Below are positions 2,748 to 7,418 of a stretch of DNA of 16,055 bases, piece by piece (the stretch's first letter is position 1; every line of letters begins with the position of its first letter). This stretch comes from Actinomycetes bacterium (GTDB taxonomy: Bacteria; Actinomycetota; Actinomycetes; Actinomycetales; Actinomycetaceae). The stretch lies in contig JAEZVQ010000168.1 in NCBI GenBank assembly GCA_023420745.1, positions 1-16,055 of the forward strand. Direction: 5' to 3'. The translations under genes and the position numbers were made by a program. Below the pieces are notes generated by a model that saw only the letters and a program-made list of their open reading frames with translations, was not told where the DNA came from and made no database searches.

Positions 2748-4319
2748 GTGCTAGAGATCCTGTCCACCAACCCGATCCTCACCTTCTTCCTCGTTGTTGC
2801 CGCCGGGGCGGCGCTCGGGCAGATCAAGTTCGGACCGCTGCGTTTCGGCGCGGTCGGCGCGCTCTTCGTCGGTCTGGCTCTGTCCGCATTCCATCCTGAA
2901 CTTGGCGACGGCATGGCGGTGCTGCAATCGCTCGGTCTTGCCCTCTTCGTCTACGCCGTGGGGATTTCTGCCGGCTCGACGTTCCTCAGCCAACTGCGCC
3001 AGCAAGCGGGGCTGATGGGTGCCGGGGCGCTGGCGGCAATGCTCGGTGCCGTCATTGCGATCATCGGCGCATGGCTGCTGGGCATCCCCGCCAACCTTGC
3101 CGCGGGCGCTTACACCGGTGCGCTGACGTCGACCCCGGCACTCGACGCAGCACTGCGCATCGCCGGAAGTTCCGACCCCGGAGCCGGTTACGCGGTGGCC
3201 TACCCCTTCGGCGTGGTTGCCGGCATTATCGTCGCCTCGATTATCGTCACCCGACCGTGGGAGGGCGCGAATGACACGGCTTCGCTGGCCGGTGTCGGGC
3301 TGGTGGCACGCACCGCCGCTGTCACCCGTACCGTCAACGTTCGCCGCGTTGACGCGTGGCGGCGCCAAGACGTGCGGATCTCCTATCTGCGACGCGGCGA
3401 CGTCACCCGCGTCGTCGTTCCCGGCGAAGATCTGATGGTGGGCGACGAAGTCGTCATTGTCGGTGCGCCCGACGCGGTCGAGCGTGCCATTAGTGAGGTC
3501 GGTGAGGAACTCGACCACCACCTCGCCGACGATCGTCGCGACGTTGATTTTGAGCGTTTCACCATCTCCAACCCCGTTATCATGGGCAAAACCATTGCTG
3601 AACTTAACCTCCCGGTGAAGTTCGGCGGTGTCATTACTCGCGTGCGGCGCGGCGACCTCGAACTGCTCGCCACCGATGAACTCGTCCTCCAGCCCGGCGA
3701 CCATGTGGCCGTCGCGGTTCCCAGTGAGGAAGTCGAAGAGCTCGCACGTTTCCTCGGCAACTCCGAGCAGAAGGTCAGTGAGGTCGATGCCCTCGCCCTC
3801 GGTGTCGGTCTGGTGCTCGGCATGGTGCTCGGTCTCGTCATTTTGCCGCTACCTGGCGGAGCAATATTCTCTCTCGGCATTGCCGGTGGCCCACTGATTG
3901 CCGGTATGGTACTCGGCGCGCTGCGTCGCACCGGCCCGCTGGTGTGGTCAATGCCTGACGCGGCGAACCGTATTATTCGACAGCTGGGTCTGCTCTTCTT
4001 CCTCGCCGCACTCGGTCTGGGTGCCGGGTCGGCATTTAAAGCCGTGGTGGCGACGTCACTGGGGTGGAAAGTTGCGTTGGTCGCGACGGTGATCGCCGCG
4101 CTGTGCGCCGTGACCGTCGCCGTTGTCGGCAAACTTCTCAACCTCTCCGGGCCGCGCGTGGCCGGTGCTATTGCCGGGTTTATCGGTCAGCCAGCGATCC
4201 TCTCCGCCACCCAGGCACGGGTGGCGGATGAGCGCATCGAATCCTCCTACGCGGCGCTATTCGCCACCTGCATCGTGTTCAAGATCCTTCTCGTGCCCCT
4301 GATCTATTCACTGCTGTGA
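2748..4319 (+). CDS. AspT/YidE/YbjL-family putative transporter with two RCK_C domains
   Basis: A 523-residue membrane protein of the aspartate:alanine exchanger (AAE) family. Two homologous hydrophobic halves (about residues 8-170 and 350-523) flank a soluble middle. The first half carries GAYTGALTSTPALDAA (120-135) and the second GAIAGFIGQPAILSATQAR (473-491), the repeated signature of the AspT/YidE duplication domain. The central region holds two RCK_C/TrkA_C modules, about 185-255 (RRQDVRISYLRRGD, VGDEVVIVG) and 265-340 (VKFGGVITRVRRGDLELLA, PGDHVAVAV), which usually bind a regulatory ligand. Size and architecture match full-length YidE-type proteins. The substrate is unknown; AspT exchanges aspartate for alanine, but most homologues are uncharacterised. 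The GTG start is supported by a TAGGCT box 6 bases upstream and implies a leaderless mRNA. Confidence 0.88.
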   Translation: MLEILSTNPILTFFLVVAAGAALGQIKFGPLRFGAVGALFVGLALSAFHPELGDGMAVLQSLGLALFVYAVGISAGSTFLSQLRQQAGLMGAGALAAMLGAVIAIIGAWLLGIPANLAAGAYTGALTSTPALDAALRIAGSSDPGAGYAVAYPFGVVAGIIVASIIVTRPWEGANDTASLAGVGLVARTAAVTRTVNVRRVDAWRRQDVRISYLRRGDVTRVVVPGEDLMVGDEVVIVGAPDAVERAISEVGEELDHHLADDRRDVDFERFTISNPVIMGKTIAELNLPVKFGGVITRVRRGDLELLATDELVLQPGDHVAVAVPSEEVEELARFLGNSEQKVSEVDALALGVGLVLGMVLGLVILPLPGGAIFSLGIAGGPLIAGMVLGALRRTGPLVWSMPDAANRIIRQLGLLFFLAALGLGAGSAFKAVVATSLGWKVALVATVIAALCAVTVAVVGKLLNLSGPRVAGAIAGFIGQPAILSATQARVADERIESSYAALFATCIVFKILLVPLIYSLL

Positions 4320-4337: not shown

Positions 4338-4446
4338 ACAACAGTGGAAAACTGCGGAATTTCAACGAAAACCTCGAACACAACAATTAACACACTAATC
4401 AACACAACAGTATTAGTGTGTTGATTAGTGTGTTGATTAGTGTGTT
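4338..4446 (+). repeat. Upstream copy of the repeat flanking the AlbA-like gene
   Basis: Positions 4368-4422 are identical over 55 bases to 5971-6025, and similarity continues to 4446 with three differences in 24 bases. It also reaches back to 4338 at roughly 70% with one indel, in sequence that corresponds to the 3' coding end of the AlbA-like gene (including codons for NLEHNN and a TAA). Within it, 4389-4406 and 4417-4434 are perfect 18-base inverted arms. It therefore looks like a decayed gene end plus an intact regulatory repeat. Confidence 0.8.
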
Positions 4447-4447
4447 T
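4412..4447 (+). promoter_or_regulatory. Three tandem 12-base iterons in the AlbA-like gene promoter
   Basis: ATTAGTGTGTTG is repeated three times head to tail (4412-4423, 4424-4435, 4436-4447; the last base of the third is T). The same motif is present in inverted orientation just upstream (CACACTAAT at 4391-4399). The array ends 3 bases before the candidate -10 box TACGCT (4450-4455) and thus covers the -35 position, where no normal -35 hexamer is visible. This is the layout of an operator. The winged-helix C-terminus of the adjacent protein is an obvious candidate ligand, but that is inference. Confidence 0.6.
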
Positions 4448-4449
4448 GC

Positions 4450-4475
4450 TACGCTGGGCGCTAAGGAGGCGCCAC
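4450..4475 (+). promoter_or_regulatory. -10 box and strong RBS of the AlbA-like gene
   Basis: TACGCT (4450-4455) is a plausible -10. AAGGAGG (4463-4469) lies 6 bases before ATG 4476 and decides the start. GGCGC (4457-4461) and GCGCC (4469-4473) can pair around a 7-base loop that contains most of the ribosome binding site. Confidence 0.5.
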
Positions 4476-5993
4476 ATGGACGCGAGTACTCTCGCTCAGA
4501 TCGTTGAGAATCTGCGGAAAATTGGGACGGATACATCGACGATCGAGGTCAAGGCAGCCAGCGGAGGCTGTCCCAAGAGCATCGACGCGACGATCTCCGC
4601 TTTTGCCAATGGGGCGGGTGGTCTGATCATCCTCGGGCTTGATGAGACCGCCGGATTTTCCACGGTACCGAGGTTCGATGCGAGACGATGTGCTGACGCC
4701 TTCGCCTCTCGGTGTGTTCATCATATGGATCCTCCGGTGCGAGCCGACATCGAGATTCTCTCGTTCGACGATCGAGAAGTTGTCATCGCGTCGATCCCAG
4801 CTTTCCAGCCGTTTGACAAGCCGTGTTATGTCAAGGAAAAGGGGCGCTACAACGGTTCCTATATCCGCACAGCAGACGGGGATCGTCGCCTCACTTTCTA
4901 TGAAGTTGATCGGCTTCTCGAACAGAAACAGCAGCCCCAGTGGGATCGGGAGGCAGTGGACGAAGCCACTGTCGAGGATCTCGACGCTACGTTGGTGCAG
5001 AAAGTGTTGGAGCGAGAGCGTGAGCTCCATGAGCGCTCGAAAACCGCGGACGACGCGACACTGCGTCGGCGTTTGAACATCACCCGGATGGTTGAGGGGC
5101 GCGAGGTGCCCACAGTTGCCGGTCTCGTCGCACTCGGGGACTACCCCCAGCAGTTCTTCCCGCAGCTCATGGTGTCATTTGCTGTCTATCCCGGTGATAC
5201 CAAGGCGTCCGTGACGCCAGGAGTGCGGATGCTCGACAATGTCACTTTCGTCGGACCAATTCCTGACATGATTGATGAGGGCGTGCGCGCAGTACTGAGA
5301 AACTCCAGGCGTGGCGCTGTCATCAAGGGTGTGCATCGCTTCGACCTCCCCGACTACGCGGAAGGCGCGGTGCGAGAAGCGTTGACGAATGCCCTCATGC
5401 ATCGCGACTATTCACCGACGGCGCGAGGCGCGCAGGTGATGATCGACATGTACCCCGATCGCTTGGAAATCACCAACCCTGGTGGGCTATTTGGAACGGT
5501 GACGCTCGACGCGCTCGGCACGGACGGGGTGTCGAGCTCTCGCAACCAAGCACTTTCAACACTCTTGGAGCTGACACCCGCGCGAAACGGCGGGTTCGTG
5601 GCTGAAAATCGAGGTTCGGGCTACGTCGAGATCCTCAGCGAACAACAGCGCGCCCACCTTCCTGCCCCGCACCCCGATGACCAGCTGTCGCGATTCCGTC
5701 TCACTTTCGCACGCCGCTATCTCACCGAAATCGAGGGTGGAGGTGCGATGCCAGCAACTCCGCGCGAGCTCATTCTCGATCATCTTCGACACCATGCGAC
5801 GGCAGCGAGCAAAGAACTCGCAACCGTTGCGGGGGTGTCGGTCGGACGTGTGCGCCAGATCCTCAATGAACTGTGCGATAGCGGCGAGGTCGAGCGCACC
5901 CAGCCCGCGCGAAGCCCGAAGCAGCGCTACCGCATCGCGACAACAGCTCAAAAACAGCGGGATAACAGCAAAAACCTCGAACACAACAATTAA
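4476..5993 (+). CDS. Schlafen AlbA_2 / GHKL-type ATPase / winged-helix protein (COG2865-like)
   Basis: A 505-residue soluble protein. About residues 18-145 form an AlbA_2 (Schlafen-type) domain: T22-IEVKAASGG, then SAFANGAGGLIILGLDE (41-57), and the typical end GSYIRTADGDRRLTFYEVDRLL. About 290-415 resemble the HATPase_c_4/'RecG C-terminal-like' domain: REALTNALMHRDYS (300-313) holds the N-box E301/N305 with H309-R-D, followed by DRLEITNPGGL (328-338). Residues 424-488 form a winged helix (ELATVAGVSVGRVRQILNEL). Such proteins are annotated as predicted transcriptional regulators or ATP-binding proteins; no activity is established here. ATG 4476 is chosen for its AAGGAGG site; an in-frame ATG 12 codons upstream overlaps the -10. 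The gene stands alone, bracketed by repeats, and its TAA lies inside the downstream copy, suggesting a transferable or recombining cassette and autoregulation. Confidence 0.85.
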   Translation: MDASTLAQIVENLRKIGTDTSTIEVKAASGGCPKSIDATISAFANGAGGLIILGLDETAGFSTVPRFDARRCADAFASRCVHHMDPPVRADIEILSFDDREVVIASIPAFQPFDKPCYVKEKGRYNGSYIRTADGDRRLTFYEVDRLLEQKQQPQWDREAVDEATVEDLDATLVQKVLERERELHERSKTADDATLRRRLNITRMVEGREVPTVAGLVALGDYPQQFFPQLMVSFAVYPGDTKASVTPGVRMLDNVTFVGPIPDMIDEGVRAVLRNSRRGAVIKGVHRFDLPDYAEGAVREALTNALMHRDYSPTARGAQVMIDMYPDRLEITNPGGLFGTVTLDALGTDGVSSSRNQALSTLLELTPARNGGFVAENRGSGYVEILSEQQRAHLPAPHPDDQLSRFRLTFARRYLTEIEGGGAMPATPRELILDHLRHHATAASKELATVAGVSVGRVRQILNELCDSGEVERTQPARSPKQRYRIATTAQKQRDNSKNLEHNN

Positions 5994-6049
5994 CACACTA
6001 ATCAACACAACAGTATTAGTGTGTTAATTGTTGTGTTGATTAGTGTGTT
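5940..6049 (+). repeat. Downstream copy of the flanking repeat
   Basis: Matches 4338-4446, with 55 identical bases at 5971-6025. It includes the last codons and stop (5991-5993) of the AlbA-like gene. The tail 6026-6049 differs from the upstream copy at three positions, and those changes extend the inverted symmetry. It fills most of the space between this gene and the convergent aminopeptidase gene (stop at 6092). Confidence 0.8.
5980..6049 (+). other. Two mutually exclusive long inverted repeats
   Basis: Arms 5980-6002 and 6015-6037 are perfect 23-base complements around a 12-base loop. Arms 5992-6011 and 6030-6049 are perfect 20-base complements around an 18-base loop. The two stems share bases, so only one can form at a time. 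Both are AT-rich and lack a GC stem plus T-run, so a standard intrinsic terminator is not indicated. The first stem would enclose the stop codon. Confidence 0.7.
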
Positions 6050-6091: not shown

Positions 6092-7405
6092 TCAGCCGCG
6101 ACGCAGGTACTCCTCCAGTACTCGCGATAGGGCGAGGTGGTCGGCCACGTGGGTCATCTCGCGTGCCGAATGCATCGACAGCATTCCAATGCCCACATCG
6201 ACCGTAGTGATGCCGAGACGAGTTGCGGTTAACGGGCCGATTGTTGACCCGCATGGCATCGCGTTATTCGACACGAACACCTGGTGCTCGACACCGGCGC
6301 GTTCACAGGCGCGCGCCCACAGTGCCGTCCCTACCGCGTCGGTGGCGTAGCGCTGATCGGCATTGACCTTGAGCATCGGGCCGCGCCCCGGCATCGGGTG
6401 GGTTGCGGGGTCGTGGCGATCAGCGTAGTTCGGGTGCACCCAGTGCCCGGCGTCGGCAGAAATACACGACGAGCCGGCAAGCATCCGGTGGTAGCCATCC
6501 TCATCCGCACCGAGCGTCGCGGCGAGGCGCCGAAGTGTTGTTTCAAGGATCGGACCGCACGCCCCCGAGCGAGTGGAAGATCCGACTTCCTCGTGGTCAA
6601 AAGCGGCGAAAACGGCAACAGCCTGATCGTCGCAGGTGGCTGTGTCACCGCTGGTGGCAAGACGTTCAAACGCGGTCAGCCCCGCGTGAACCGAGGAGAG
6701 GTTGTCTTGGCGGCCAGCGGCAAAGAACTCACCATTGGCGCCGAAACGTCCCGGCGCCTCACAGGCAAAGGACACGAGGTCATGACCGGCGATATCCTCG
6801 GCAGAATCGAGACCTGCTTCGCGTGCGACGACGGTAAAGAACGACTCAGCCTCCGCGCCATCCGCATGCCATACAGGATGAATGTGGATTTGATGATCGA
6901 GTTTCAATCCCGTGGAATACACTTCACGATCAAGATGGATGGCAAGCTGCGGGACACGTGCGATTGCTCCGGTGCTGACGAGGTGAGAGTGCCCTTCACG
7001 GTCGATGACTCGACCGGCAAAACCGATTTCGCGGTCAAGCCAGGAATTGATGAGCGGCCCGCCGTAAACTTCGACATCAATATGTCCCCACCCGTCAGGA
7101 GTTGTTGACGACCCGAGTGGCTTGACTTTGAGCGCCGGGGAATCCGTATGGCAGCCGATGATACGGAACGACGAAGTTGGGCTGGCGTGAACGGGAACCC
7201 ACCAGGCAATCACCGCGCCATCGCGGACAAAGTAGGCGCCACCTGCGTCCCGACGCCACGCCTCTTCCTCGCGCACCCGGGAAAACCCGGCGGCGTCGAG
7301 TCGGCGCGCAATTTCCGCTGCCGCGTGGTAGGAGGACGGGGATGCGGTGATGAACGCGGAATAATCATTGACGTGGGCGATGGCTTCAGCACTCAGTACA
7401 GTCAT
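6092..7405 (-). CDS. apeB: M18 family aminopeptidase
   Basis: A 437-residue zinc metallopeptidase, typical M18 (aspartyl aminopeptidase-like) length. The dinuclear metal site can be placed: H86 in IIGCHTDSPALKVKP, D234 in GRQDNLSS (the bridging Asp), the E272-E273 pair in FDHEEVGSST, D318 in ISADAGH, and H412 in LSMHSARE. YGGPLINSWLDREIGFAGRV and NDNA-like VSNNAMPCGSTIGP are also family hallmarks. It is a cytoplasmic enzyme that removes N-terminal residues from peptides, in this family often acidic ones. ATG 7405 is preferred over the ATG at 7417, because the latter overlaps a TATGAT box that lies 7 bases before 7405 and fits a leaderless start. Convergent with the AlbA-like gene and divergent from the membrane protein gene. 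Symbol follows family usage. Confidence 0.92.
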   Translation of the reverse strand: MTVLSAEAIAHVNDYSAFITASPSSYHAAAEIARRLDAAGFSRVREEEAWRRDAGGAYFVRDGAVIAWWVPVHASPTSSFRIIGCHTDSPALKVKPLGSSTTPDGWGHIDVEVYGGPLINSWLDREIGFAGRVIDREGHSHLVSTGAIARVPQLAIHLDREVYSTGLKLDHQIHIHPVWHADGAEAESFFTVVAREAGLDSAEDIAGHDLVSFACEAPGRFGANGEFFAAGRQDNLSSVHAGLTAFERLATSGDTATCDDQAVAVFAAFDHEEVGSSTRSGACGPILETTLRRLAATLGADEDGYHRMLAGSSCISADAGHWVHPNYADRHDPATHPMPGRGPMLKVNADQRYATDAVGTALWARACERAGVEHQVFVSNNAMPCGSTIGPLTATRLGITTVDVGIGMLSMHSAREMTHVADHLALSRVLEEYLRRG

Positions 7406-7412
7406 ACGCACG

Positions 7413-7418
7413 ATCATA
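7413..7418 (-). promoter_or_regulatory. -10 box for the aminopeptidase gene (leaderless)
   Basis: TATGAT on the minus strand is a near-consensus hexamer, with 7 bases to ATG 7405 and no ribosome binding site. It lies in a 37-base gap shared with the divergent membrane protein gene, so the two promoters must overlap or abut. Confidence 0.5.

Follow-up and report, generated by a model that had tools for sequence, protein, structure and literature searches.

A very probably mobile single-gene unit of actinobacteria with palindromic ends and an AlbA_2, GHKL-type ATPase and winged-helix protein

In the window analysed here, a stretch of 16,055 nt from an Actinomycetaceae bacterium (GenBank assembly GCA_023420745.1, contig JAEZVQ010000168.1), a gene encoding a 505-residue protein stands alone between genes for an AspT-like transporter and an M18 aminopeptidase, and near-identical repeats lie on both sides of it. 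Do the gene and its repeats form a unit that moves? The initial annotation had described a lone Schlafen-AlbA, GHKL-ATPase and winged-helix gene between unrelated genes, flanked by AT-rich direct repeats of 55 identical and about 79 near-identical bases, and had considered a mobile cassette. These features were all recovered. The two repeats were 91% identical over 99 nt with a period of 1603 nt; their 79-nt cores shared the first 55 bases and had a GC content of 33%, against 54.5-68.5% in 200-nt windows distant from the repeats. Both copies were quasi-palindromic (inverted repeats I2, I4 and I7). The mobile-cassette reading was supported by empty alleles in relatives and by the presence of the unit in several genera. 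What lies in the window is very probably a copy of a single-gene mobile element that is widespread in actinobacteria, arranged as palindrome, gene and palindrome over about 1.6-1.7 kb, with ends that are usually direct repeats. On sequence comparison it is very probable that it moves as a palindrome-bounded unit, because it is common to unrelated sites across genera and because occupied, solo-palindrome and naive alleles exist at shared sites.

The unit in unrelated sites and its empty alleles

A common unit was carried by five species of four genera: two Brevibacterium species, Pseudoglutamicibacter, Gleimia and Gulosibacter (loci L034, L035, L037, L038 and L045). Its DNA, spanning palindrome, gene and palindrome, was 84.4-88.2% identical in all 10 pairs, and no DNA similarity was found outside the unit in 10 of 10 pairs at E 1e-5 when as much as 6 kb of flank was compared on both strands. 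Identity in blocks of 50 alignment columns was 0.79-0.91 inside the unit, apart from two gapped blocks at the right palindrome (0.60 and 0.66); it was 0.45 in the left-edge block and 0.31-0.37 beyond the unit ends. The element gene was more similar between these genomes (84.8-88.2% DNA identity) than dnaK (71.5-81.7%), and vertical descent therefore fails as an explanation. Differences at codon positions 1, 2 and 3 of the five-species unit were 0.05-0.07, 0.02-0.05 and 0.27-0.35, respectively, a pattern of purifying selection on the gene. A search for closer naive sites of this unit found none: the flank was recovered in 3 of 57 Brevibacterium genomes, one being the query and two lacking a right-flank match, and in 1 of 11 Gulosibacter genomes, the query genome itself.

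Alleles of shared sites were compared in Corynebacterium. An allele was called naive when both flanks lay within 50 nt of each other (76 nt at the second site, that of L067) with no match to the reference palindrome or gene, a definition that could miss strongly diverged palindromes. At the first site, next to a gene that we take from its sequence to be rmlA, the left flank was found in 104 of 201 genomes and the best 30 loci were examined. They comprised 5 occupied and 5 solo alleles, 1 divergent palindrome, 15 naive alleles and 4 uncalled loci (L128 and L138, with gaps of about 180 and about 500 nt between the flanks, and L130 and L133, without a right flank). Occupied and solo alleles interleaved in the tree of the left flank, where L115 (occupied) and L116 (solo) were sisters (100/99) and L113 and L114 were paired (86/88); by this tree alone, loss and regain are indistinguishable. 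The flank of the L067 site was present in 183 of the 201 genomes. Among the 30 loci examined there, 4 had the gene, 3 were solo, 1 was decayed, 21 were naive and 1 was uncalled (L227, 211-nt gap). Solo allele L191 and occupied L067 were 90-91% identical in both flanks and had one palindrome in common. The decayed element (L206 and L177, in one genome) had kept the gene start and lost most of the gene, with two palindrome copies on one side. A solo allele was also found in Gleimia, where the flanks of L038 were joined by a single palindrome in L202.

A palindrome search matched 39 of the 201 Corynebacterium genomes, at 1 or 2 places each. Of 30 Corynebacterium palindrome loci, 16 lay beside a full gene, 2 beside a gene fragment and 12 had no gene within 1.5 kb; four of these twelve (L178, L181, L185 and L186) had no tie to an occupied site.

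At the insertion site of the window itself, nine relatives (AspT 63-70% identical) had the AspT and M18 genes as neighbours without the element gene, separated by gaps of 12-1101 nt. No element palindrome was seen by eye in these nine gaps, and no solo-palindrome allele was found at this locus among the relatives examined. The initial annotation had suggested looking for relatives that lack the gene and retain a single repeat. The first part held for the window's own site; single palindromes were left at the rmlA, L067 and Gleimia sites, and none was found at the window's own. The opposite case that it had named, in which every relative keeps the gene in one place and empty sites are lacking, does not describe these nine genomes. 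In L139, L140, L141, L146 and L148, other sequence lay between AspT and M18. By eye it resembled a gene for an ArsR-type regulator and, in three of these loci, genes with histidine-rich repeats, of the AAGGTACGTG type in two.

Palindromic ends and the protein between them

Flanking repeats proved to be a feature of the family. The best 80 of 389 genome loci encoding a relative were taken, which together with the window gave 81 loci. A direct flanking repeat with a score of at least 22 within 350 nt was present in 52 of the 81, compared with 3 of 1008 control windows that had the same geometry and came from these loci, which rules out chance repeats. By eye, L050 and L070 among the 52 had repeats of another kind (coding- or tRNA-like), and those of L046 and L060 were short and unlike the others. 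No flanking pair whatever (score below 18 in either orientation) was found in 28 of the 81 loci. Inverted pairing outscored direct pairing in 4 of 81; both orientations score since the repeats are palindromes. A second set, from Corynebacterium and in part overlapping with the first, had a direct or inverted pair in 21 of 30 close-family loci (the best 30 places of a Corynebacterium profile search) and in 1 of 20 loci of longer paralogues (picked near E 1e-100), so the repeats are mainly a trait of the subfamily with the shorter protein.

Palindromes were analysed in 45 loci, namely the 47 with a direct score of at least 30 within 350 nt, less L050 and L070. L051 and L053, in which inverted pairing of the palindromes is the better one, fell outside this set, and L012 and L022 were under the score. 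The palindromes had a mean GC content of 45%, against 61% for the loci, and a 12-nt period (autocorrelation 0.488, shuffled 0.248, z 28.5). A dyad score of at least 14 was reached in 34 of 45 loci and in 1% of shuffles. Their units varied by lineage and included CTTCCCAC, AACACTC, CTCTCAA, TTATTCAC and others. By eye, the recognition helices were SRTAVQK-like in the CTTCCCAC group and mostly GGxR-like in the AACACTC and CTCTCAA groups. Among proteins longer than 350 residues, palindrome similarity correlated with distance in the winged helix (r -0.76), in the middle of the protein (-0.74) and in the N-terminal part (-0.61), with a partial r for the winged helix given the middle of -0.36. It is likely from these comparisons that the protein recognises its own palindromic ends. 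The winged helix is probably the part that binds them, because palindrome similarity follows changes in it slightly more closely than those in the middle of the protein.

As the initial annotation had proposed, the repeat was sought genome-wide. In 8 whole genomes the palindrome occurred beside the gene only, at 2 places each and at 3 in one, which had an extra tandem copy (G006). The query was the L045 palindrome at E 0.01, and lone 12-nt sites are below the sensitivity of this search. At that sensitivity, a dispersed REP/REPIN family or a regulon operator is ruled out in these genomes.

Several loci departed from the common arrangement. The upstream palindrome was inverted in the Corynebacterium loci L243, L249, L252 and L254. 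At the rmlA site it was inverted in L111, L112 and L113 and direct in the near relatives L109 and L115, as if flipping; L007, L015 and L053 also belong here. L008 had two palindrome copies upstream in place of a flanking pair. In L049 (5705-7674) the order was palindrome, X, palindrome, gene, palindrome and X, the repeat taking in the palindrome and 148 nt (X). The repeat of L010 (5823-5959 and 7507-7643) ran 80 nt past the palindrome into what looks by eye like the final part of the gene lying upstream, which hints at recombination-type integration in a shared flank. Extension of the repeat past the dyad by at least 20 nt was seen on the left in 10 and on the right in 6 of the 45 loci, with no consistent side. 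The window and L062 suggested that a remnant of the gene's 3' terminus precedes the left palindrome. Such remnants were found in 3 of 45 loci and, for the control direction, in 1 of 45, repeat-internal stretches being uncounted, and the remnant was rejected as a family feature on these counts. L026 (6001-10019) held two different family genes next to each other, the second 97% identical to the L022 unit of another genome. The direct repeats flanking L022 and L070 were by eye tRNA-like and unlike the palindromes. A 69-nt flanking repeat of CAGTGA/TCACTG units was present at L276, which encodes a longer paralogue resembling 3LMM (see below).

The protein of the window matched SLFN_AlbA_2 (PF04326) at residues 20-139 (E 6.5e-14, 52.9 bits, cut-off 25.3) and HATPase_c_4 (PF13749) with 76.7 bits, above the cut-off of 26. 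For the winged helix, residues 433-470 gave HTH_24 at 20.3 bits, slightly under the cut-off of 21.9, and MarR_2 was also below its cut-off. The AlphaFold2 model (mean pLDDT 86.7, pTM 0.71) returned MarR-type winged-helix structures, the AlbA_2 domain 2KYY and, more weakly, SLFN13 and AspA, the centromere-binding protein of pNOB8. The top structural match by E-value (3.8e-20) was DIP2311 of Corynebacterium diphtheriae (PDB 3LMM). Its whole-chain TM score was only 0.33-0.40, and the likeness therefore concerns domains, not the whole chain. By sequence, the HATPase stretch of DIP2311 matched and the winged helix did so weakly. DIP2311 and the paralogue subfamily of 570-600 residues are thus alike to the window protein at domain level and differ from it in their loci, which had flanking repeats in the single case of 20 given above.

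Residues D19, E24 and E57 were invariant across 32 aligned homologues. The HMMER alignment puts E57 on D248 of SLFN13 if E221, E229 and E249, residues that were tested, serve to number the chain. We take D19 and E24 to correspond to E205 and E210 from the Schlafen motif only; the HMMER alignment places this stretch differently. According to PMC5862951, E205, E210 and D248 form the putative nuclease site of SLFN13, and mutating any one of them lowered RNase activity. The likeness to the SLFN13 N-domain (PDB 5YD0) thus lies in the AlbA_2 domain and in acidic residues at corresponding places, by a mapping that is partly assumed. The difference is that SLFN13 is a mammalian endonuclease of tRNA and rRNA, whereas a nuclease role of the bacterial AlbA_2 domain is putative.

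Homologues numbered 1622 at E 0.001 out of 7997 scored candidates. Their only database names are 'ATP-binding protein', 'divergent AAA domain protein' and 'ATP-dependent DNA helicase RecG', which are silent on function. For about 25 of 120 listed homologues (hand count) the longest contig was 1571-1741 nt, none being shorter, as though the flanking repeats interrupted the assemblies.

Layout of the window

The features of the locus are collected in Table 1. An Rfam scan of the window gave no match, and no tRNA was found in it.

Table 1. Coordinates of the element and its neighbours in the window
Feature	Position	Strand	Remarks
Upstream flanking repeat	4348..4446	.	99 nt; core 4368-4446, quasi-palindrome with 12-nt-period units; dyad I2
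Downstream flanking repeat	5951..6049	.	Core 5971-6049; takes in the final codons of the gene with its stop
Single gene of the element	4476..5993	+	505 aa; ATG at 4476, stop ends at 5993; SLFN_AlbA_2, HATPase_c_4 and winged helix
SLFN_AlbA_2 domain	4533..4892	+	Pfam match; codons of D19, E24 and E57 at 4530, 4545 and 4644
HATPase_c_4 (GHKL-type ATPase) domain	5427..5708	+	Residues 318-411, E 1.4e-21
Winged-helix domain, presumed palindrome binder	5757..5936	+	HTH_24 and MarR_2 below cut-off; modelled helices 429-468; covariation with palindromes
AspT-like transporter	2748..4319	+	Left flank of insertion site; adjoins M18 in relatives
M18 aminopeptidase	6092..7417	-	Right flank of insertion site; adjoins AspT in relatives

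How the unit may move, and what stands against it

If the unit is mobile, does its protein take part? We lean slightly towards the view that the unit is mobile and that the protein has a part in its movement. Tentatively, the unit may represent a new class of transposable element in which the AlbA_2-GHKL-winged-helix protein is the mover, acts on palindromic ends made of 12-bp arrays and excises the gene with one end, leaving a solo palindrome, while ends and winged helix co-evolve into a lineage-specific end code. By its winged helix, the protein would bind the 12-bp unit arrays in the two ends of its own element, and the GHKL domain could act as an ATP-dependent clamp that brings the two ends together. 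The Schlafen-type AlbA_2 domain, in which the acidic nuclease-site residues are kept, would then cut the structured ends; that this domain is the moving enzyme is a possibility that we hold with reserve. Gene and one palindrome would depart, probably as a circle, with the solo palindrome staying behind, and rejoining at another site would give a new copy.

A number of observations weigh against this mechanism or against parts of it. A direct flanking pair with a score of at least 22 was lacking in 29 of the 81 loci, and the inverted upstream palindromes are unexplained by a simple direct-repeat model. The middle of the protein kept a partial r of -0.23 given the winged helix, and the permutation P of 0.0005 for the winged-helix partial correlation ignores shared descent. 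Each genome carries about one copy, which is unlike an active transposon. No clear target-site duplication was found at the rmlA and L067 sites, where the nearest naive alleles, with flanks at most 79% identical, are too diverged for a clear reading. Proteins of the window gave no transposase, recombinase or integrase match to domain models at E up to 0.001, and tyrosine-recombinase-like matches below the cut-off were present in 12 of 12 genomes, so that a host recombinase may have a role in movement. The gene could also be lost by plain homologous recombination between the repeats. Finally, SLFN13, the best-studied Schlafen nuclease, cuts tRNA and rRNA, not DNA ends (PMC5862951).

In an alternative reading the protein would play no part: a resident regulator or stress gene would lie between operator arrays that happen to be direct repeats, host recombination would delete the gene and leave a solo palindrome, and ordinary uptake and recombination would spread it between species. 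Direct repeats alone suffice for a loss that leaves one repeat, a winged helix with regularly spaced sites resembles a regulator and its operator, and about one copy per genome fits as well. Homologous uptake, however, requires common flanks, and these are absent around the unit of the four genera, which ends at the palindromes on both sides; moreover, naive sites are without a palindrome, and both ends therefore arrive with the unit. We regard such a passive origin as unlikely. A role in defence, in which an AlbA_2 RNase harms the cell once the GHKL domain senses a trigger and the palindromes are autoregulatory, would explain patchiness by the fast gain and loss of defence genes, and it is compatible with mobility. 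The invariance of the three acidic residues, with their partly assumed mapping onto SLFN13, speaks for it, as does the patchy presence of the family (profile matches at E 1e-80 in 65 of 201 Corynebacterium genomes, longer paralogues included). PADLOC returned partial matches to three Argonaute-related models only (best E 3.4e-15), models that are longer and span other domains. The exact palindrome boundaries and the solo palindromes would be left unexplained, and this reading appears improbable.

That the unit is a RAYT/REP or IS200/IS605 element, an integron cassette with attC or a module driven by Xer and dif is very improbable, and no known class tested fits it. Integron cassettes resemble it in layout, with a single gene and a palindromic attC as direct repeats and a precise loss that leaves one site. 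The family differs in its units of 12 nt, and the integron integrase model TIGR02249 exceeded its cut-off in none of 12 genomes (sub-cut-off matches occurred in 12 of 12 and likewise in all 14 control genomes), so the integron cassette was rejected on the integrase. Long terminal repeat (LTR) elements likewise have long direct terminal repeats whose recombination leaves a solo LTR; the unit of the window is bacterial, has palindromic ends and carries neither reverse transcriptase nor integrase. For a module driven by Xer and dif, we assumed as dif patterns an E. coli-type core and a dif-arm-like 9-mer. The 9-mer was present in 3 of 45 palindromes and the core (XerC arm, 6 nt, XerD arm) in 0 of 45, which rules out such a module for the E. 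coli-type pattern. RAYTs come close in another way, being single genes flanked by two palindromic REPs that co-vary with the protein and are reminiscent of a transposable unit (PMC2817692). According to the same source, RAYTs are tyrosine transposases related to IS200/IS605, the two REPs beside them stand in inverted orientation, and a genome usually has more than 100 REP copies. In contrast, the window family has an SLFN_AlbA_2/GHKL/winged-helix protein, mostly direct repeats (the 52 of 81) and no dispersed copies in 8 genomes. No HUH/tyrosine transposase of the IS200/IS605 type was found as a Pfam domain at E 0.001 or as a fold among the 50 structural matches listed, and RAYT/REP and IS200/IS605 were rejected on these grounds. 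A classical insertion sequence was rejected since no transposase gene with a known catalytic domain was found at the threshold given above.

Cargo of phages or plasmids was rejected as well: plasmids gave no DNA match and no protein match at a strict E of 1e-60, 35 phage records matched, each below 60% identity and 5 of them covering 80%, and IMG/VR gave 2 weak loci. No description of such a unit was found in the PMC titles and abstract openings searched, a scope outside which subscription journals, ISfinder and preprints lie.

The actinobacterial branch of this orphan family, as the sole gene of a palindrome-ended mobile unit, becomes a testable system. It is possible that its protein is a DNA-mobilising enzyme without a known recombinase domain. 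The natural pairs of end sequence and DNA-binding domain are a source from which recognition rules can be learned. If the protein is passive, the unit is still a widespread cassette whose gain and loss leave readable scars.

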